Part shown: one piece after another, positions 1-9,891 of the stretch
Layout of the letters: each line of letters opens with the position of its first letter
How positions within the stretch are numbered: the first letter of the stretch is position 1
Assembly (NCBI GenBank): GCA_003223115.1
Contig: QHXW01000128.1
Location: 1 to 39,130, forward strand
From: Acidobacteriota bacterium
GTDB lineage: Bacteria > Acidobacteriota > Terriglobia > Bryobacterales > Bryobacteraceae
Direction: 5' to 3'
DNA: 39,130 nucleotides
Notes under the pieces: generated by a model
Told to the model about the DNA's origin: nothing
Databases searched by the model: none
Seen by the model: only the letters and a program-made list of their open reading frames with translations
Position numbers and translations under genes: made by a program

Positions 1-113
1 GAAAGCGTAACTTGGGCACCCCCTGCGGGAGCCGGCTCGCTCAGCGTCACCGTGCCCGTGGAGGATTGTGCGCCGCCGACGACACTCGTCGGGTTTAACG
101 TCAGCGACGAGAG
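1..113 (-). repeat. 113-bp coding repeat of the Ig-like domain, unit in copy 2 (second)
   Basis: Nearly identical (about 8 differences by eye) to 301-413, exactly 300 bases away, and to 2570-2682. It encodes the first strands of the Ig-like domain (TLNPTSVVGG to PAGGAQV). Confidence 0.85.
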
Positions 114-1934
114 CGGTGGAGGGCCTGAAGGCGTCACGGTGAGCGCGGCCGTTTTGCTCACTCCACCATAGGACGCGGAGATAGTGACCGGGGTCGATGC
201 AGCTACCGCACTGGTCGTCACGGTGAAGGTTGCGCTGATGGCTCCGGCCGGAACGGTCACACCGTTGGACGGGACGTTGGCCGCCGCTATATTGCTGCTC
301 GAAAGCGTGACTTGGGCACCCCCTGCGGGAGCCGGCCCGCTCAGCGTCACCGTGCCCGTGGAAGATTGTACGCCGCCAACAACACTCGTCGGGTTTAGCG
401 TCAGCGAAGAGAGAAACGTGGGGTTTGCAGGCGCTGAACCCTGCTCGAAGGTCCAGACCGCAGGATTCGGGTCGCTCAAGGGGATCGCTATGAACTGCGA
501 TGGAGACACCACGTACATGACCGCACTCCCTCCGGTTCCGGAAGTGATGGTCATGGCTCCCCGGCCATCGGCCGGCGAAGAGGCTATGGAGTATGTGGCA
601 TTGAAGGCCGAGGCTGATACGGGTCCACTGCCCCCGCCGGTATCCTCGGTGCCGGTCATACTGGCCGTAGGGCCGGCACCATCGGCCGTGAACTCGCCAG
701 AGAAGGTAACGGCACCGGAGGGCGCAGGGAGGGTCGTCGTACCGGCATAGGAACCGATTACCGCGTTATTGGTGAACGGCCCTGTTGCCTGGGGCTCGCT
801 GAATCCGAAGAAAGCAGAACTGTTTGTGACAACAAAGAACGCTTGGCCCAAGTTAGCCAGATAGGCAACCATGGTGACTGTGCCGACCGTGATCGCCGCC
901 CGGCCATCGCTTGTCACGCTGTAGGTGCCCGAAAGAACTGCACTGGAGACCACCCCGCCACAATTCCGATCGTAGCTCAGGGTGATACTGCCATTGCCAT
1001 CGGCAGTGAGCAAACCGGCGAGTACGTCGGGTGCGGGAGAAGAAACACATACGGTAAGCGATGTAAGGTAAAGTACCATGCCGCCATTCAACGAGGCGTT
1101 GGAGAAACCTCCCGCTGAATTTTGCTGTTGCAGCATGGTGCCACCGAGCAGTGGGGTGCTAGTCGCCACCGCGTCTCTGCCCATCAGGAAGATTTTTCCC
1201 GAATTCACGATGTAAAAGACGTAACTAAGGCTGAATGGCTTTCCACTGAATATGATGGAGAAACTTATAGTGCCCCGTCCGTTAGCGGTGTCCGATACGG
1301 TGTAGTTGGCCGTTGTAAAGGTGGCTGGACCAGCGGCGTCGGATGCGTTGATGTCGGCGGCCCCGTGAGTGAAGTTGCCCGCCCCGTCCGCAGTAAGACG
1401 ACCCACGAACGTCACGCGACGGTTCGAGGGGTCAAAGCCCGCTATTCCAAATGCATAATCACCCGTAATCTTGGCCGTGCCGTACGCTGTGCTGTCCGCC
1501 TTTTCGATGGTACCGGAACCAACCGTTCCGGTCCCTCCCGCAGCATCAAACTCTATGAATTGGGCGCTGCCATTGGCTCTCATCGCGAACGCGAGTTTCG
1601 ATGACCCTCCCTGGGCGGTAGTTAAGGTCATCACGCCCCTGTGGTCCGCACCAATCGAATAGGTCCCGGTGAAGGTTTGAGCAACCAGCGGAGCAGCCAA
1701 ACCTGCGCCGTTGGTGTCCCGTTCACCGTTCGTCAAATTCCCGGCCCCGTCCGCTCTGAATCTTCCCACGGCCGAGAAAACAGTTGAGCCGGTAGCACTC
1801 GCGGTGAACCCGGTGAAGTTAAAAGCGTAGTCGCCATTCAGCTCGGCGTTGTTCACCCCGGAGGTCTGGGCTCGGACCGTCGAGGCAAGAAGCAGGGCGA
1901 AACACACGAACAGCAGGGTATTCAGTTTCCTCAT
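1..1934 (-). CDS. Large secreted protein, copy 2, with at least two Ig-like domains (3' partial)
   Basis: I translated the minus strand from ATG 1934 and found 644 codons without a stop up to the left edge, so the C-terminus lies outside. The N-terminus MRKLNTLLFVCFALLLASTV is a signal peptide close to that of copy 1. Four modules follow in the same order (NGDYAFNFTGF; GDYAFGIAGF; SNASLNGGMVLYL; NNAVIGSYAG), each with the ADGAGN-type hairpin and GRGT strand, then one full Ig-like domain and the beginning of a second, 100 residues apart. It is a paralogue of the gene at 2398-4197. Function unknown, probably extracellular. It carries more Ig-like domains than copy 1, which ends after one. Confidence 0.88.
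   Translation of the reverse strand, partial: MRKLNTLLFVCFALLLASTVRAQTSGVNNAELNGDYAFNFTGFTASATGSTVFSAVGRFRADGAGNLTNGERDTNGAGLAAPLVAQTFTGTYSIGADHRGVMTLTTAQGGSSKLAFAMRANGSAQFIEFDAAGGTGTVGSGTIEKADSTAYGTAKITGDYAFGIAGFDPSNRRVTFVGRLTADGAGNFTHGAADINASDAAGPATFTTANYTVSDTANGRGTISFSIIFSGKPFSLSYVFYIVNSGKIFLMGRDAVATSTPLLGGTMLQQQNSAGGFSNASLNGGMVLYLTSLTVCVSSPAPDVLAGLLTADGNGSITLSYDRNCGGVVSSAVLSGTYSVTSDGRAAITVGTVTMVAYLANLGQAFFVVTNSSAFFGFSEPQATGPFTNNAVIGSYAGTTTLPAPSGAVTFSGEFTADGAGPTASMTGTEDTGGGSGPVSASAFNATYSIASSPADGRGAMTITSGTGGSAVMYVVSPSQFIAIPLSDPNPAVWTFEQGSAPANPTFLSSLTLNPTSVVGGVQSSTGTVTLSGPAPAGGAQVTLSSSNIAAANVPSNGVTVPAGAISATFTVTTSAVAASTPVTISASYGGVSKTAALTVTPSGPPPLSSLTLNPTSVVGGAQSSTGTVTLSEPAPAGGAQVTL
301..413 (-). 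repeat. 113-bp coding repeat of the Ig-like domain, unit in copy 2 (first)
   Basis: Differs from 2570-2682 at about 6 positions, all in the first 45 bases. The last roughly 68 bases are identical by eye. Confidence 0.85.
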
Positions 1935-1939
1935 TTTTA

Positions 1940-2029
1940 CTATCCTTGCCGGCTGCGGTTAGAGGAGGCAGAGAGGCCACAGGACCCGCACCTAAGAATG
2001 ACACTCACATCGAATGTGGTCTGGAACAT
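1940..2029 (-). other. 29-codon leader frame upstream of secreted protein copy 2
   Basis: The ancestral start region (AGGAGGCCAGT then ATG TTC CAG), shared with copy 1, is kept at 2029. Here the frame runs only 29 codons and stops at 1940, because about 80 bases without counterpart in copy 1 follow it. The real gene then starts at 1934 with its own AAGGA. The peptide has no visible domain, and could be a vestige or a translated leader. Confidence 0.45.
1943..1947 (-). promoter_or_regulatory. Ribosome binding site of secreted protein copy 2
   Basis: AAGGA on the minus strand, 8 bases before ATG 1934 and absent from copy 1, which uses the AGGAGGT site at 4202-4208. Confidence 0.55.
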
Positions 2030-2043
2030 ACTGGCCTCCTGGA

Positions 2044-2319
2044 TCAGGAAACACGATTTGCTACATCCATAACTGTCTTAGAAAGGTCAACAGCCAAAGC
2101 GTATGTGAAGCGGACCGCGTCATCGAAATTGAGATGGATAGCATCTCTCTGGTACAACCTTGGCGAGAGCGCCACCGGATCAATCGGCACCAGTGCGTCC
2201 ACTCCGACCTTCTGCGAGGCTATGGCCATTCGGCGGGCCGCGTTCTCCGAAGATGGAGTTGGCGGAATCACGAGAATCAGTTTGGCGCCATGCGCCTCAC
2301 AGAGTTCCCGGAGGGTTCG
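2044..2319 (-). pseudogene. Duplicated 3' end of the SGNH gene, no start codon region
   Basis: This encodes the last roughly 90 residues of the SGNH partner (RTLRELCEAHGAKLILVIPP onward, with YQRDAIHLN and the same stop), matching 4212-4487 at about 94% identity without gaps. The serine block, TM helix and start are missing, so it cannot make an O-acetylation enzyme. Most differences are conservative or silent, indicating a fairly recent duplication. The 78 bases at 2320-2397, between it and the end of copy 1 of the secreted gene, hold nothing I recognise. Confidence 0.88.
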
Positions 2320-2397
2320 TTGTCCGTGGCCCGATTGCCCTCAGACTGGCTGGCAAATTCATTGCAAGTCCACTCAAGGTATGATCCCTCTCGCTGG

Positions 2398-4197
2398 CTA
2401 CCGGCCAGATGTAAGACTTGCCGTCCGAGTCGTTCCGTTAGACGAAGCCGAGATGTTGACGGAAGTTGAGAAGAGAACTACAGAGGTGTACACCGTGAAG
2501 TTTGCGCTGGTGGCTCCGGCCGGAACGGTCACGCTGGAAGGCACGCTGGCCACCGCCGTATTGCTGCTGGAGAGCAGAACTTGTGCACCCCCTGCGGGAG
2601 CCGGCCCGCTCAGGGTCACCGTGCCCGTGGAAGATTGTACGCCGCCAACAACACTCGTCGGGTTTAGCGTCAGCGAAGAGAGGGTTGAAGGAAGTGAAGA
2701 CCCCTCGAAGATCCAGACTGCGGGATTCAGAACGTTCAACGGGACTACTACAAACTTCGATGGGGACACCACGTACACGACGGCGCTCCCTCCACGCCCA
2801 GAAGTGATCGTCATGGTTCCCCTTCCATTTGTTGGCGAAGAGGAAATGGAGTATGTGGCGTTGAACGCCAAACCCGAGACCGGTCCGTTCGAGGCGCCGA
2901 TATCCGCGATGCCAGTGCCCGTCTGGCTGGCACCGTCCGCCGTGAACTCGCCCGAGAAGATAGCAACATCCGATGTCGCAGGGCTGATGGCCGAGCCAGC
3001 ATAGGTACCCAGCACCGCGCTATTGGTGAACGACCCCGCTGCCTGGGGTTCGACGAACCCAGAACTATCTGTGCCAAGGAAGAAGGCCTGGTTCACGCTC
3101 ACCAGGTAGGCAACCGTATGATACCGCCCGATCACCACCGTTGACCGGCCATTGCTGGCCACAATGTACGTACCCAACAAGGCCGTGACGGAGGTCGTCG
3201 CCCCGCCGCAGTTCTGGTCGAAGCTTAGGGAGAGAGCGCCATTGCCACCAGCAGTGAGCAAACCCACGAGCACGATCGCCACAGGGATGGATCCGCTGCC
3301 ACACATTGAGCGCGCTGTAAGGTAAAACACCATGTCGCCATTCACCGAGGCGTTGGAGAAACCTCCGGCGGGAGTTTGCTGCTGCTGCACGACGCCATTT
3401 AGAAGTGGGGTCGAACCGCTGACGCCGTCCGTCTCCATCGCGAACAGCTTTCCCGCGTTCACGACGTAAAAGACGAAATTGAAGTTCCGAGACACGCCTC
3501 CGATTAAGGAGGCCAGGTTTATTGTCCCCCGACCGCGAGTGGTATCAGATATCGCGTAGTTCGCCGTTGTAAAGATCACGGAACTGGTGCTGCCAAATTG
3601 GACAATGTCCGCGGCTCCATTGGTGAAAACGCCCGCCCCGTTCGCAGTAAGACGGCCCACGAACCCCGTGCGATTGTTCGAGGCGTCGAAGCCTGCTACT
3701 CCAAACACGTAATCACCGGTTATTTTGGCCGTGTTGTACGCAGTAGTGTCCACCTTCTCTATGGTGCCCGAGCCGACCGTTCCGGTCCCGCCCGCGGCAT
3801 CGAACTTGATAAACTGGGCGTTGCCATTGGGCATCATGACGAACGCGAGCCTCGCTGAGGCGCCGTGGGTATTTAAGGTCATCACACCCCTGTTGTCCGC
3901 ACCGATCGCATACGTCCCGGTGAATGTTTGAGCGGTTACCACGACTGCGGGACCTATGCCGTTGCTGTCCAGTTCACCGCTCGTCACATTCCCTGCTCCG
4001 TCCGCGCTGAATCTTCCCACGGCTGCGAAAACAGACGAGCCGCCAGCACCCACGTCGAACCCGTTGAAGGTAAACGCGTAGTCGCCATTCAGCTCGGCGT
4101 TGTTCACCCCGGAGGTTTGGCCTCGGACCGTCGAGGCAAGAAGCAAGGCGAAACACATGAACAGCAGGGCATTCAGTTTCAATGAGGCCTGGAACAT
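2398..4197 (-). CDS. Large secreted protein: four repeated modules plus one Ig-like domain (copy 1)
   Basis: A 599-residue exported protein of unrecognised function. After a signal peptide (cleaved near residue 26, STVRG) come four related modules at about 33-155, 156-277, 281-388 and 389-500. Each opens with an NGDYxF- or LGTYAG-like strand, contains a GRFSADGAGNVTSGELD-like hairpin, and ends in a TYxI...GRGTMT strand. A bacterial Ig-like domain follows at about 506-596 (LTLNPTSVVGGVQSS, SGPAPAGGAQV, VTVPAGAT). The ATG has AGGAGGT 4 bases before it and lies 15 bases after the SGNH stop, so the gene is coupled to the O-acetylation pair. No anchor or catalytic motif. Probably an extracellular matrix or surface-binding protein. 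Confidence 0.85.
   Translation of the reverse strand: MFQASLKLNALLFMCFALLLASTVRGQTSGVNNAELNGDYAFTFNGFDVGAGGSSVFAAVGRFSADGAGNVTSGELDSNGIGPAVVVTAQTFTGTYAIGADNRGVMTLNTHGASARLAFVMMPNGNAQFIKFDAAGGTGTVGSGTIEKVDTTAYNTAKITGDYVFGVAGFDASNNRTGFVGRLTANGAGVFTNGAADIVQFGSTSSVIFTTANYAISDTTRGRGTINLASLIGGVSRNFNFVFYVVNAGKLFAMETDGVSGSTPLLNGVVQQQQTPAGGFSNASVNGDMVFYLTARSMCGSGSIPVAIVLVGLLTAGGNGALSLSFDQNCGGATTSVTALLGTYIVASNGRSTVVIGRYHTVAYLVSVNQAFFLGTDSSGFVEPQAAGSFTNSAVLGTYAGSAISPATSDVAIFSGEFTADGASQTGTGIADIGASNGPVSGLAFNATYSISSSPTNGRGTMTITSGRGGSAVVYVVSPSKFVVVPLNVLNPAVWIFEGSSLPSTLSSLTLNPTSVVGGVQSSTGTVTLSGPAPAGGAQVLLSSSNTAVASVPSSVTVPAGATSANFTVYTSVVLFSTSVNISASSNGTTRTASLTSGR
2570..2682 (-). repeat. 113-bp coding repeat of the Ig-like domain, unit in copy 1
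   Basis: The only such unit in copy 1. It shares a roughly 68-base identical tract with 301-413, although the surrounding modules of the two proteins are clearly diverged. Confidence 0.85.
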
Positions 4198-4201
4198 ACT
4201 G

Positions 4202-4208
4202 ACCTCCT
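4202..4208 (-). promoter_or_regulatory. Strong ribosome binding site of secreted protein copy 1
   Basis: AGGAGGT on the minus strand, 4 bases before ATG 4197, within the short gap after the SGNH gene. Confidence 0.65.
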
Positions 4209-4211
4209 GGA

Positions 4212-4487
4212 TCAGGAAAGACGATTTGCTACATCCATAACTGTCTTAGAAAGGTCAACAGCCAAAGCGGATGTGAAGCGCACCGCACCATCGAAATTGA
4301 GATGGATAGCATCTCTCTGGTAGAACCTTGGCGAGAGCGCCATCGGATCAATCGGTACCAATGCGTTCACTCCGACCTTCTGCGAGGCTATGGCCATTCG
4401 GCGGACCGCGGTCTCCGAAGATGGAGTCGGCGGAATCACCAGAATCAGTTTGGCACCATGCGCCTCACAGAGTTCGCGGAGGGTTCG
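4212..4487 (-). repeat. Parent copy of the 276-bp direct repeat (SGNH gene 3' end)
   Basis: This stretch matches 2044-2319 in the same orientation without gaps. I counted 16 mismatches by eye, about 94% identity. The similarity ends abruptly at the GGGTTCG sequence at 4481-4487. Confidence 0.9.
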
Positions 4488-5231
4488 CAGGCGAGACATA
4501 AGAATCGCTTCAAATTCTCCCCCCTGCGGAATGGTAAGATCTGATCGAACGAAGGGAAAAAGGTCTTCGAAATGGGGAACCAGGCGAAGAAGAATCCGTC
4601 TTCGAAAGAAGCTGCGCATCTCCCAAAATGCGCTCATGTGCGACAGCAAGAGGTTGCTTGTTGCGGTGTAATCCAGGCCCAAATCGGCAGCTACGCCGAG
4701 GACGTCCCGGGCATCAAAGAGCATCATCGGGGACTCCTCCCACACGCCATTTGCTAGAGCCGTGTTCACTTCGAAACCGACCACGACGACCTGGGGCCTT
4801 GATCCCTGGCGAAACAGGCGACGTAGCCCATACAGCCAGTCGTAGTAACCTGTGCCTTCGAGGAAGATTGGATAAATCCGCAAGGTGCTGGTCGTCAGCT
4901 TTCGGAGTTGGTCAACGTCGACGCCGTTTAGCAGCAGAGAATTGCCCACCATCAGAACAGACGTCGGTTCTTTAGGGGCTGCGGGATACACTCTTACGGC
5001 TTCGGCGTATTGTCGCGAGACGCGCGCATAGGTGATTGAATAATGCTTCACCGCGTAAATGGAAAAACTCTCCAGGCCAATAAGCAGGATCGCGCAGGTT
5101 CCCGCCAGTATTGTGGCGTAGCGTAGGGTCGCAGGTTTAGAACTGGAAGTAGACGAACGTACTGAATTTACTGCCCGAAAAGACCGCCAGTACGACGAAA
5201 GCGATAACCGCCATGCCGGTGCGAACTGCAT
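4212..5231 (-). CDS. SGNH-hydrolase-like O-acetylation partner protein
   Basis: 339 residues from ATG 5231: a basic N-terminus, one TM helix (ILAGTCAILLIGLESFSIYAV), then a periplasmic SGNH-like domain. LMVGNSLLLNG near 93-103 is the serine-bearing block (Ser98), and the C-terminal YQRDAIHLN supplies Asp307 and His310 of the triad. That arrangement matches AlgJ/AlgX-type proteins that place acetyl groups received through MBOAT. No start codon exists in frame between 5231 and the end of the TM helix. The gene therefore overlaps the MBOAT gene by 95 bases, unusually long for this window. Its last 276 bases are repeated at 2044-2319. Confidence 0.82.
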   Translation of the reverse strand: MQFAPAWRLSLSSYWRSFRAVNSVRSSTSSSKPATLRYATILAGTCAILLIGLESFSIYAVKHYSITYARVSRQYAEAVRVYPAAPKEPTSVLMVGNSLLLNGVDVDQLRKLTTSTLRIYPIFLEGTGYYDWLYGLRRLFRQGSRPQVVVVGFEVNTALANGVWEESPMMLFDARDVLGVAADLGLDYTATSNLLLSHMSAFWEMRSFFRRRILLRLVPHFEDLFPFVRSDLTIPQGGEFEAILMSRLRTLRELCEAHGAKLILVIPPTPSSETAVRRMAIASQKVGVNALVPIDPMALSPRFYQRDAIHLNFDGAVRFTSALAVDLSKTVMDVANRLS

Positions 5232-6570
5232 AAGGGGCCTCCGCAAATGGATATTCTTGGTTGCTAGCTTCCAGCAACAGGTCCACAAACAAGAGAGGGA
5301 GAGAAAACATGCACAGCATCACAAAAGCTGAGACATATTCGCTCCGCCAGGCAAAGTGGGCCAGTCCACCGAGGAACTGCACGGCTGAACTGAGTGATGG
5401 TGATCGGAAAAATGCCAAGCTCAAGCACAAGATGTTGAAGGTGAGAATCCGTTGTGTCCAAAGGGACAGGAAGCCCGTAACGTGCCTGGACCGAACTGCG
5501 TCCGCTGGCTTCTTCTTGGCGACGGAAAAAAAGCGCTCAATGGACAGGACGACACCGTGGATGGCACCAAACACGACGTACGTCCAGTTTGCGCCATGCC
5601 AGAGGCCCCCAAGAACCATGGTTGTGAGAAGATTTCGATCGGTTTTCCAACCCCCTTCCCGGCTGCCGCCCAACGGGATATACAAATAGTCGCGAAGCCA
5701 GGTGCTCAAACTGATGTGCCAGCGCCGCCAGAACTCTTGAAGGTTTTGTGACAAGAACGGCTGCCGGAAGTTAATCATGAAGTGGAAGCCCAGCAATTGC
5801 GCGCTCCCACGCGCAATGTCGCTGTAACCGCTGAAATCTCCGTAGACTTGCCAAGCGAACGCATAGGTGCCGATGAGAATAACCCAAAAGTTTGGACTTC
5901 CGAGCTGGCCACTAAAGGCCGCGTTCGCCAGGAGGGCACAATTGTCCGCAACCACGCACTTGCGGAGAAGGCCAGAAAAAATCAACAGCATGCCGTCGAA
6001 AAAACGATCCGCATTGAAGGCACGACCCTTCTGAACCTGAGGAAGCAGATGCGACGGCCTTTGAATGGGACCCGCAATCAAGTGGGGAAACAGACTGATG
6101 AATAGACTGTAGTCAACGAAGGACTTGGCGGGTTCCAGTCTTCCCTTGTAAACATCTACGATATAAGCGACTTCCTGAAACGTGTAGAACGAAATGCCCG
6201 GGGGAAGGATAATGCGGATCAAAGGCAGAGGAATATGGTGAAAGCCCAGGGTATCCAGGCTACCCGCAAAGGAATCCACAAAAAAATTAAAGTACTTGAA
6301 GACCCCGAGAATCGCAAAGTTTAAAACAAGTGAGAAGATAAACCACTGCTTGCGGTTTGGGTTCGGCCGACTCTGGGCGATTTTCTGGGCGATCAGAAAA
6401 TCTACCGTCGTGCTCCCGATCATGAGTGCAAGGAAGCGCCAATCCCACCAGCCGTAGAAAAAATAGCTCGCAAGGAGCAGAAAAACGTTCTGTGCGCGGT
6501 GACTGAGGCGCCAGTATGCCAGCACGACGACAATCAAGAAGATGAAGTAAACAGGGGAGTCAAAAAGCAT
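5137..6570 (-). CDS. MBOAT-family O-acyltransferase (AlgI-like)
   Basis: Integral membrane acyltransferase of 477 residues that passes acetyl groups across the inner membrane for polysaccharide O-acetylation. MLFDSPVYFIF at ATG 6570 is the usual AlgI-type N-terminus, so the earlier TTG at 6594 is not preferred. Family marks are ILPPGISFYTFQEVAYIVD, FPHLIAGPIQR, QVYGDFSGYSDIA, FWRRWHISLSTWLRDYLY and GGLWHGANWTY, with the conserved His pair at about 285 and 325. About ten hydrophobic segments are visible. It is followed by an SGNH-type protein, the normal partner (as AlgI with AlgJ/AlgX). Confidence 0.94.
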   Translation of the reverse strand: MLFDSPVYFIFLIVVVLAYWRLSHRAQNVFLLLASYFFYGWWDWRFLALMIGSTTVDFLIAQKIAQSRPNPNRKQWFIFSLVLNFAILGVFKYFNFFVDSFAGSLDTLGFHHIPLPLIRIILPPGISFYTFQEVAYIVDVYKGRLEPAKSFVDYSLFISLFPHLIAGPIQRPSHLLPQVQKGRAFNADRFFDGMLLIFSGLLRKCVVADNCALLANAAFSGQLGSPNFWVILIGTYAFAWQVYGDFSGYSDIARGSAQLLGFHFMINFRQPFLSQNLQEFWRRWHISLSTWLRDYLYIPLGGSREGGWKTDRNLLTTMVLGGLWHGANWTYVVFGAIHGVVLSIERFFSVAKKKPADAVRSRHVTGFLSLWTQRILTFNILCLSLAFFRSPSLSSAVQFLGGLAHFAWRSEYVSAFVMLCMFSLPLLFVDLLLEASNQEYPFAEAPYAVRTGMAVIAFVVLAVFSGSKFSTFVYFQF

Positions 6571-6645
6571 GGGGATGGATAACCGAATCGACAACTGTTG
6601 CGACTTCGCCCATCGATAGGTAATGAAGGTAATGACGCAGAGCCA

Positions 6646-7917
6646 TCATTCTAATTTGCGGGACTTGGTCTCCAATTCGAGCGGCTCGAACTGAAAGTCG
6701 TTTGTACGCTGAAAGGCGAATTGAGACCTCTTGGCGTGCAGAATCCGCCACGAGAGCGCTTGTGAGGCGAACTCCGTTCCGGCAACGAACTTCATCAGCG
6801 GTCCGAAACGCCACGCTGCCGGAGCTCCCAGAAAGTGCAGCCCGGGCAAAGAAGTTTCGAACCCTGCATCGAGGCGTGGATAACCGCCTACAAGATCTAT
6901 CTGCCGCAGAACTTCTGACGAAAGGAACGGATACCGGGCGACATTGATGCGATAACCGGTTCCGAGAATCACATGATCCACCACGCGCTCGGTTCCGTCA
7001 TCCAATCGAACGCGGAGATGCTCTCCTTGAACTCGGGCTTGGTCTAAGAATTGTTCCGTATGAATGATCACGTGCTGGATACGAGGCTTGATCCACGGTG
7101 CGACCGCAGGCCGCATCGCCCGCGCCCCCCACCGGTCTTGCATACGACGCGGCAGCCGGCGGAACAGATTCGGCCGCTGGACGACCAGGCTGACGCCTAC
7201 TGGACCTATGCCGCCCCGGCCATAGAACATCCACGCGAGCCCCTTCGAGCGCATCCACTGGTGGCGTCCAAGCCAGTGTACAGTGGAATCACGAACCAGG
7301 ACTTCCACATGGGCTCCTGCTTCGTATAGAAAGGCGGCCGCCTCGAGGGCGCTTTGTCCACCACCAATGACGAGGACTTCCTTGCCCCGGAACTTTCCAT
7401 AGTCCCTTTGCTCCGACGTGTGCGTGACCAACGATGCGGGAAGACCCTCGAACATTTTCGGGCGATGGGCAAAGGGCTGGATGCCCGCTGCCACGACAAC
7501 GCGCCGCGCACACAGTGCTTCGCCGTCTTCGAGGATGAGCTGGTACCCTTGCGGAGCCAAGTCAATTCGCATTACGTTGCGCCGATCCGACGGCAGCGCA
7601 GCATGCTGATGAAACCAGTGCCCGTAGCTAATATAGTTCTTCAGGGGAACTGGATCTGCCAAGTGATGATTTCCATTTAGTGTCCGGTACACGTCGAGCG
7701 TAAATCGATTTCCCGGGTCGGCGATATGGGAGCCCTCCCAAGGGGAGCGTAGACGCATTCCCTCGGGCATATGCCGCTCCCAGAAAGACATGGGTTCGCC
7801 AAAAAGCCTGACGTCCAGGCCTTTCAATTGCAGGAGATGGGCGGCCGCGGACATACCGTACGGGCCAGAGCCTATGATTGCGACGTCACATCGTTCCATA
7901 GAATTTGAATCCGTCAC
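6646..7917 (-). CDS. FMO-like FAD/NAD(P)-dependent oxidoreductase
   Basis: A 423-residue flavoprotein. The FAD loop is AIIGSGPYGMSAAAHL (about 14-29), followed by RLFGEPMSFWERHMPEGMRL, a pattern of the FMO/HpyO-like monooxygenase group. The NADPH loop VLVIGGGQSALEAA lies near 187-200, and ILGTGYRIN ends the FAD domain. These enzymes hydroxylate nitrogen- or carbon-centres of small substrates; the substrate here is unknown. GTG 7917 opens the frame. The ATG at 7899 (six codons in) is an equally possible start, and neither has a strong ribosome binding site. The position between the methyltransferase and the MBOAT gene suggests glycan tailoring, an inference. Confidence 0.85.
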   Translation of the reverse strand: MTDSNSMERCDVAIIGSGPYGMSAAAHLLQLKGLDVRLFGEPMSFWERHMPEGMRLRSPWEGSHIADPGNRFTLDVYRTLNGNHHLADPVPLKNYISYGHWFHQHAALPSDRRNVMRIDLAPQGYQLILEDGEALCARRVVVAAGIQPFAHRPKMFEGLPASLVTHTSEQRDYGKFRGKEVLVIGGGQSALEAAAFLYEAGAHVEVLVRDSTVHWLGRHQWMRSKGLAWMFYGRGGIGPVGVSLVVQRPNLFRRLPRRMQDRWGARAMRPAVAPWIKPRIQHVIIHTEQFLDQARVQGEHLRVRLDDGTERVVDHVILGTGYRINVARYPFLSSEVLRQIDLVGGYPRLDAGFETSLPGLHFLGAPAAWRFGPLMKFVAGTEFASQALSWRILHAKRSQFAFQRTNDFQFEPLELETKSRKLE

Positions 7918-8787: not shown

Positions 8788-9852
8788 TTACCTACATCCT
8801 GGCCTGAGCGCCCCAGGGTGGAAAGTTATGGCTAGACCCTCAGGTAGCGCTGCTACCCCTAGTACCGTATCCACTACGGCGTGAGTGGCGGTGTCGATCA
8901 CCGAGATTGTACTGTCCGTTTCATTGCCCACATAGGCAAAGGCACCGTCCGGAGTAATGGCCACACCACGAGGTGTCACTCCCACGGGGACCGTGGTCAT
9001 CACAGTGTTTGTGCTCGTGTCAATCACCGAAACGTTCCCGGTGCTGTCATTCGCCACATAGGCAAAGGCACCATTTGGCGTGATGGCCACGTCGACGGGG
9101 CTCCTCCCGACTGCCACTGTGGCCACCACCTTGTTGGTGGCGGTGTCGATCACAGAAACGTTGTTCGAAGCGTAATTCGTCACATAGGCGAAGGCCCCGT
9201 TCGGCGAGACGGCCACACCGGCAGGGTTGCTCCCCACTGCCACCGTAGCCACCACCTTGTTGGTGGCGGTGTCGATTACGGAAACGTTGTTCGAAGCCGA
9301 ATTCGTCACATAGGCAGAGGTCCCATTCGGCGTGATGGCCACGCGCCAGGGGCTAGTTCCCACCGCGACCGCGGCCGTGACCGTGTTGGTGGCCGTGTTG
9401 ATCACGGAGACGTTGTTGGAGGCCAGGTTCGCCACATACGCAAAGGCCCCGTTCGGGGTGATAGCCACGCCGCTAGGGTATTGCCCTACTGGGATCGTGG
9501 CCACTACTTGGTAGGTGGCAGTGTCGATCACCGAGACGGAGTTCGAAACAATTAAACCTGCATGCATCGAATTGGTTACATAGGCGAAGGCCCGGTTCGG
9601 AGTGATGGCTACACGAAGGGGCTGATTCCCGACCGGGATCATCGCCTCCAAAGCGTCGGTGAGCGTGTTAAACACCGAAACGCTGTTCGACTCGCGGTTG
9701 GCGACATAGACGTCGCACTGAGCCGCCGCCGGACCGCACTCCAGTACCAATAGCAAGAGCAGTGACGAACACCAAAGTGGCCGCAACGTGCTCACCCTAT
9801 CGTCTCGATTTTGACTCATGGACTCCCAGAACCAGTTTCGTTTCTTGCGCAT
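8788..9852 (-). CDS. Secreted seven-bladed YVTN-type beta-propeller protein
   Basis: A 354-residue secreted protein. A signal segment (CSSLLLLLVLECGPAAAQ) precedes seven roughly 42-residue blades of the form NNVSVIDTATNKVVATVAVG followed by VAITPNGAFAYVTN. The blades fill the mature protein, so one seven-bladed propeller is predicted. ATG 9852 is selected because AAGGAG lies 6 bases before it; the ATG one codon earlier is too close, and an upstream TTG at 9891 has no site. YVTN propellers are usually extracellular surface-layer or binding proteins. No catalytic motif or anchor is visible, and its role in the cluster is unknown. Confidence 0.88.
   Translation of the reverse strand: MRKKRNWFWESMSQNRDDRVSTLRPLWCSSLLLLLVLECGPAAAQCDVYVANRESNSVSVFNTLTDALEAMIPVGNQPLRVAITPNRAFAYVTNSMHAGLIVSNSVSVIDTATYQVVATIPVGQYPSGVAITPNGAFAYVANLASNNVSVINTATNTVTAAVAVGTSPWRVAITPNGTSAYVTNSASNNVSVIDTATNKVVATVAVGSNPAGVAVSPNGAFAYVTNYASNNVSVIDTATNKVVATVAVGRSPVDVAITPNGAFAYVANDSTGNVSVIDTSTNTVMTTVPVGVTPRGVAITPDGAFAYVGNETDSTISVIDTATHAVVDTVLGVAALPEGLAITFHPGALRPGCR
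8988..9480 (-). repeat. Tandem 126-bp repeats encoding the propeller blades
   Basis: The stretches near 9112-9170 and 9238-9296 differ at only a few bases at an offset of exactly 126 bases (42 codons). More diverged units continue on both sides. This is coding repetition within the YVTN gene. Confidence 0.8.
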
Positions 9853-9858
9853 CATCTT

Positions 9859-9864
9859 CTCCTT
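9859..9864 (-). promoter_or_regulatory. Ribosome binding site choosing the second ATG of the propeller gene
   Basis: AAGGAG on the minus strand, 3 bases before ATG 9855 and 6 bases before ATG 9852. The spacing favours 9852. Confidence 0.55.
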
Positions 9865-9891
9865 TGGGGTTGTCCCCTCCGACTTAATCAA

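Follow-up and report, generated by a model that had tools for sequence, protein, structure and literature searches.

The left end of the window carries two adjacent genes for secreted proteins, here called A and B, which are separated by a copied piece of a neighboring SGNH-like gene. We consider it probable that this arrangement arose by tandem duplication and that, afterwards or together with it, the core of B was replaced by imported DNA; gene exchange rather than copying best explains, in our reading, the second protein core. The duplication scar, that is the SGNH piece, marks the copying, and the protein between scars has another history. Adjacent paralogs should not be read as simple duplicates.

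The window (39,130 nucleotides, the whole stretch of DNA that was analysed) is a complete contig, C585, of a draft genome of 9.1 Mb in 594 contigs with 97.5% completeness and 4.8% contamination. The window and the contig start at the same base, and sequence to the left of gene B lies outside the contig. The large genes that we read as real are located on the minus strand. From about 39 kb to about 14 kb the window resembles a polysaccharide locus. Two genes of this stretch have Pfam support, one for a Wzz/AAA tyrosine-kinase-like protein and one for a heparinase II/III-like protein; an export protein, glycosyltransferases and a flippase were named by reading the translations only. At 8788–9891 lies a gene with strongly similar internal DNA repeats, whose product we take to be a secreted beta-propeller. 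Toward the left contig end the order is flavin-dependent oxidoreductase, MBOAT, SGNH-like gene, gene A, SGNH piece and gene B. The features of this end are as follows:

5137–6594, minus strand: MBOAT O-acyltransferase gene preceding the SGNH-like gene (PF03062, 81.4 bits, cut-off 27)
4212–5288, minus strand: SGNH-like gene, intact copy (open reading frame; relatives 52–62% identical adjoin MBOAT in five genomes, L100–L103 and L105)
4212–4487, minus strand: source segment of the repeat, the last 92 SGNH codons including the stop (alignment)
2398–4197, minus strand: gene A, secreted protein of 599 aa with signal peptide, four repeated all-beta modules and one Ig-like repeat
2320–2397, minus strand: 3’ flank of gene A, with a matching counterpart on contig C538 (alignment)
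2319–2320, no strand assigned: duplication junction, the joined ends sharing 1 nt, base 2319 (ends of the SGNH and C538 matches)
2044–2319, minus strand: copied SGNH 3’ piece, frame still open, lacking start and serine motif (alignment)
1930–2043, minus strand: leader of B, of which 2013–2043 is common to A and the 83 bp at 1930–2012 are present in B and absent from A
3–1934, minus strand: gene B, secreted protein of at least 644 aa with an A-like architecture, open at the contig end, with at least one full and one partial Ig-like repeat within the window

The start codon of the SGNH-like gene is uncertain, as the listed TTG at 5288 sits about 150 bp within the MBOAT gene. Its GNS and DxxH motifs, which we take to be the serine motif and the DxxH motif named for SGNH proteins, were picked out by eye. 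The adjoining, overlapping MBOAT and SGNH-like genes presumably resemble MBOAT plus SGNH O-acetylation pairs; they differ from these in that the SGNH-like protein gave no family above cut-off in a profile search of Pfam and NCBIfam. In a literature search we found no paper combining Acidobacteri, MBOAT and SGNH.

A first-pass annotation of this DNA had described the end of the SGNH gene as an ungapped repeat of 276 bases with about 94% identity, followed in both places by a paralogous secreted-protein gene in the same orientation. This is borne out by our alignment, in which 260 of the 276 bases at 4212–4487 match 2044–2319 without gaps (16 differences, 94.2% identity), and by genes A and B, which both lie on the minus strand and are 75.3% identical in DNA over 1728 columns. 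The homology, which the annotation had left open to refutation, is far beyond chance: in 20 shuffled windows the best ungapped match of the segment reached 103 of 276 bases. We also agree that the copied piece lacks a start and the catalytic GNS serine motif, the DxxH end alone having been carried along, and that its break after GGGTTCG is sharp, since the last matching base is 2319 and the identity per 20 nt drops there from 19 to 3. A search of the 97.5% complete draft genome for a third copy gave none, so the segment was found in two places only. On the other side the ungapped homology extends 31 bases past the SGNH stop (4181–4487 and 2013–2319, 93.8%). The start codon of gene A lies 14 bp past this stop.

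The other end of the duplicated unit was located with the help of C538, a contig of 3.1 kb from the same genome that was found by a search with protein A. It begins within the last Ig-like repeat of an A/B-like gene, and the end of this gene together with its 3’ flank matches the final part of A plus the adjacent 78 bp. In the alignment of window positions 2320–2412, which include the last 15 bp of A, with C538 we counted 89 matches, 3 mismatches and 3 gap columns; relative to C538, A is missing 17 bp at the stop codon. The match stops at position 347 of C538 (L013:347), corresponding to window position 2319, and beyond this point C538 enters an unrelated secreted-protein gene with DMFA2_C and DUF4082 domains. 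Base 2319 is both the end of the C538 match and the point from which the copied piece aligns with the intact SGNH gene. As the joined ends share this single nucleotide, the join is non-homologous. C538 looks like the unduplicated 3’ side of the unit and presumably lies behind B; its first bases show no exact overlap with the first bases of the window. The DMFA2_C/DUF4082 protein of C538 itself ends in an Ig-like repeat of the A/B type (L013:3059–3139) and runs off the contig. A module of this predicted Ig-like type is common to unlike secreted proteins.

The duplicated unit thus starts inside the SGNH gene, ends 78 bp past the secreted-protein gene and has a length of about 2.2 kb. Its copies lie head-to-tail with the same two boundaries (4487 and 2319 in the window; window 2319 and L013:347), and its two sharp ends come together at a single junction, as would be expected of a tandem duplication. 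In a first step, a unit comprising the last 276 bp of the SGNH gene, the leader, the secreted-protein gene and the 3’ flank would have been duplicated head-to-tail by non-homologous recombination. The matching ends and the join of one nucleotide are seen directly; the timing we infer.

When comparing the two copies we noticed that the divergence is very uneven. The difference is 3–8% for the SGNH piece, the leader, the signal peptide and the 3’ flank, and 18–42% for the protein cores. In bins of 100 columns it is 6% in each of the four bins that cover SGNH piece to signal peptide and 16–37% in the core; the two final bins, which fall in the Ig-like repeat, show 7% and 28%. The uniform similarity expected along a unit that has remained unaltered since copying was thus not found. 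The same pattern holds for sites at which the protein is not affected: 61 of 169 4-fold sites differ in the core as compared to 6 of 51 in the SGNH piece (Fisher p = 0.0008), and dS between A and B is 0.12 for codons 1–60, 0.45–0.87 for codons 60–480, 0.21 for codons 480–540 and 0.85 for codons 540–592, with 0.12 for the SGNH piece. Selection on the protein should not raise the divergence at 4-fold sites, and a different history of the core can explain it. The cores of A and B, as we read these values, are not recent duplicates of each other.

The two copies also differ at their starts. The absence of 83 bp in A fuses its start codon to the SGNH leader, so that its product begins with MFQASLKLNA (A 4180–4197) instead of MRKLN. 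Among 12 related ORFs the start is close to the MRKLN of B in 11, and exactly MRKLN in five, which indicates that B keeps the older start.

The nearest relative of B was found outside the family of the window’s genome. G524, which represents a different family of the same class, has a gene that is 86.8% identical to B in DNA over 1867 columns (window 16–1879). By comparison, the two rpoB genes show 75.2% identity in DNA over 2690 columns and 76.6% in protein. The secreted-protein gene is hence closer than the core gene of the two genomes, measured with rpoB as the one marker, which points to transfer between families. In a tree of 37 rows B is the sister of the G524 gene with 100/100 support (88% identity over 502 columns), and the highest identity of A to any row is 65%; the fork uniting A, B and their nearest rows is weakly supported (81/79). 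Relatives of B occur in 187 of 348 sampled genomes of the family of G524, G524 included. With at most four candidates scored per genome, the G524 gene (89%) is followed by E-value by a relative of only 59% among these 348 genomes. Across the class, of which 399 genomes were sampled, a profile built from five relatives detected the gene family in 201. A search of the neighborhood of the G524 gene (19.9 kb) for SGNH, MBOAT and the oxidoreductase gave nothing, and the only similarity to the C538 protein was a stretch of 28 residues in the Ig-like repeat inside the gene itself.

The first-pass annotation had taken A and B for plain duplicates of one gene that later diverged, as an example of how a tandem family of extracellular proteins grows. 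Both ends of the unit are indeed present and sharp, orientation and architecture are shared, and the part of the claim that concerns a tandem duplication capturing the SGNH 3’ end stands. Growth of the family by copying, in contrast, fails for most of the gene, because the synonymous divergence of the core is several times that of the ends and the core of B is nearer to the gene of another family than to A. On account of the 4-fold sites and the grouping of B with G524 we reject plain duplication with subsequent divergence, to which we assign a minimal probability.

In order to locate the boundaries of the exchanged part we aligned A, B and the G524 gene in a three-way alignment and compared sub-windows of about 60 nt. 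This divides B into the following segments:

1815–1934, minus strand: 5’ end of B, 7–8% from A and 18–28% from G524 (three-way alignment)
408–1754, minus strand: core of B, 2–13% from G524 in 21 of 22 sub-windows and 18–42% from A in all 22
225–407, minus strand: start of the first Ig-like repeat of B, 0–15% from A and 18–30% from G524 (three-way alignment)

Between the first two segments, at 1814–1755, B is equally distant from both (20% from A, 20% from G524), and the exceptional core sub-window, 1571–1512, is slightly nearer to A (23% from G524, 20% from A). Beyond the start of the Ig-like repeat, at 224–138, B is again nearer to G524 (23–26%) than to A (47–48%). At informative sites B agrees with A in 33 of 47 cases to the left of the segment 1736–433, in 44 of 342 within it and in 42 of 72 to the right of it. 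None of 300 permutations gave a segment as good, in a test that ignores linkage between sites. Segments of one gene accordingly have different nearest relatives, as is expected of a recombination mosaic. Exact matches between A and B of 41 nt (1825–1865) and 68 nt (346–413) are located at or adjoining both breakpoints. A has one Ig-like repeat and B two or more, alike within the genome; since the one of A was aligned with the first of B, the left-hand breakpoint is firmer than the right-hand one, which could be mimicked by such repeats being homogenised locally or mispaired.

In the second step of the favored reading, after or with the duplication, homologous recombination would have replaced the core of one copy, now B, from G524-like DNA, the crossovers lying where the sequence of the gene family is conserved. 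What is observed is the mosaic; donor, direction and mechanism are our interpretation of it.

The exact repeats of 41 and 68 nt at or adjoining the breakpoints are also the kind of site at which an assembler using short k-mers could mislink, and the contamination of the bin of 4.8% is a small worry for the core, so that a chimera assembled from a metagenome bin has to be considered. The junction itself shares only 1 nt and was therefore not made by a shared k-mer, the contig is free of N, and the differing leaders and cores imply the presence of two copies regardless of how the 41-nt tract was joined. We regard an assembly chimera as very improbable.

An alternative in one step is an import of DNA from a related strain, carrying the SGNH end and a different allele of the secreted-protein gene, that was joined beside the resident copy as a partial duplication made by transformation. 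The 6% would then be strain divergence and the core an old variable allele. The SGNH differences bear on this reading. The 16 differences affect 7 codons synonymously and 8 non-synonymously. We polarised them with four outgroup SGNH genes, L103 having been dropped from five outgroups as its frame ends early, and L101 and L102 being near twins. We assigned 7 changes to the intact gene and 5 to the remnant, and 4 were ambiguous. A remnant freed from its function long ago should show more change, and the absence of such an excess gives room for an import of the second unit from a sister strain; an imported allele and gene conversion fit the counts equally well. The about equal numbers on both copies and the 6% across the ends speak for the import, and tandem duplications made by transformation have been described in S. 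pneumoniae (PMC3784515). Against it, the mosaic of B would have to pre-exist in the donor, and no strain with the allele was found in a scan with two peptide patterns for A and B (14 stretches matched, none of them a relative), which is weak evidence because genomes near that of the window may be left out of such a scan. We give this import a small but appreciable chance. On the present sequence a unit that was copied before its core was replaced and a unit imported with its core would not be separable, and each would need copying as well as exchange.

The ends of an old tandem pair could also have become alike when those of B were overwritten from A by gene conversion. Adjacent same-strand pairs of the family do occur in other genomes, and in six of seven contigs chosen for showing a pair the members belong to different clades, L091 being the one with sister members. 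Gene conversion inside a tandem pair has moreover been reported for PE_PGRS17 and PE_PGRS18 (PMC1762029). Conversion alone would not create a fresh SGNH piece starting exactly at the end of the 3’ flank of A, however, and we judge the chance of this history to be slight. A further adjacent pair of this kind, in L085 (G316:C97:1–7000), has similar upstream DNA (77% over 129 nt), and its members fall into different clades.

The SGNH piece between A and B looks, from what it has retained, like a functionless scar, a by-product that acts as a spacer. We also considered it as a constrained gene or RNA, and found no support for this: start and serine motif are lacking, and 16 differences are too few for a test.

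The processes involved in the favored reading, namely illegitimate tandem duplication, horizontal transfer and homologous replacement, are all known; the case is a clear example of them and requires no new mechanism. The tandem duplications generated by transformation in S. pneumoniae (merodiploids) comprise about 100 to 900 kb and arise by pairing of repeats (PMC3784515). There too, tandem copies form with the help of incoming DNA and are proposed as a source of new traits, whereas the A/B unit is about 2.2 kb, has a non-homologous join and is known from sequence alone. PE_PGRS17 and PE_PGRS18 of tubercle bacilli are likewise a tandem duplicate pair with mosaic differences ascribed to recombination (PMC1762029). 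The exchange described there is between the two copies themselves; in the A/B pair, the core is similar to a gene from a different family, and the duplication took part of the adjoining gene with it. A single event of homology-facilitated illegitimate recombination (PMC3240628), in which one end is homologous and the other is not, could yield a join of 1 nt, although two separate events fit A and B equally well.

The proteins themselves are built from a signal peptide, four copies of an all-beta module of about 115 residues, and Ig-like repeats. A profile search of Pfam and NCBIfam returned no family for A or B, and a sequence search of the PDB gave one match at chance level (E 0.18). Structure prediction reached a pLDDT of 40 for the core of A and of 64 for a single module modelled from eight rows. 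Among the 50 PDB structures listed as matches to the module the highest query TM was 0.53, and none had an E-value of 0.001 or below. The model shows an eight-stranded beta fold, possibly barrel-like, at a confidence below that needed to name a fold. Their position suggests, as the likeliest role of A and B, that of exported, surface or matrix proteins belonging to the adjoining polysaccharide locus.

The case yields sharp predictions on how secreted proteins beside polysaccharide loci diversify. As a speculation that we consider unlikely in this general form, the gene family may act as an exchange cassette. The Ig-like repeats and the conserved stretch with which the mature protein begins would then serve as recombination arms, families of Acidobacteria would trade beta-rich cores at their polysaccharide loci, and tandem copies such as A/B would be kept for a wider surface repertoire.

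Single-copy relatives, which the first-pass annotation had proposed to look for, were sought at MBOAT loci of other genomes. Of 80 named loci returned, the best eight were searched for A, B, the C538 protein, SGNH, MBOAT and the oxidoreductase. An SGNH-like gene adjoins MBOAT in all eight, at 52–62% identity in five (L100–L103 and L105) and at 29–31% in three. Within the stretches available, of 3.3 to 21 kb (3.3 kb for L103), none of the eight carries A, B or a second SGNH tail. The five loci belong to Acidobacteria bins labelled gp2, gp1 and gp5 and to 13_1_20CM_58_21, and their MBOAT is 75–79% identical to that of the window; in G001, a genome of the window’s own genus, the values are 59% for MBOAT and 32% for SGNH. 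This closer relationship to the five loci than to a genome of the same genus suggests a transfer of the pair, which may have moved between lineages. In the family of the window an SGNH match was present in 22 of 237 genomes, its own included, with 37% as the highest identity in another genome. The SGNH frame of L103 has an early stop, ending at 1988, with similarity continuing past it, and is either a pseudogene or contains a sequence error. The flavin oxidoreductase gene (6646–7917) is located upstream of MBOAT in the window and downstream of SGNH in L100–L102.
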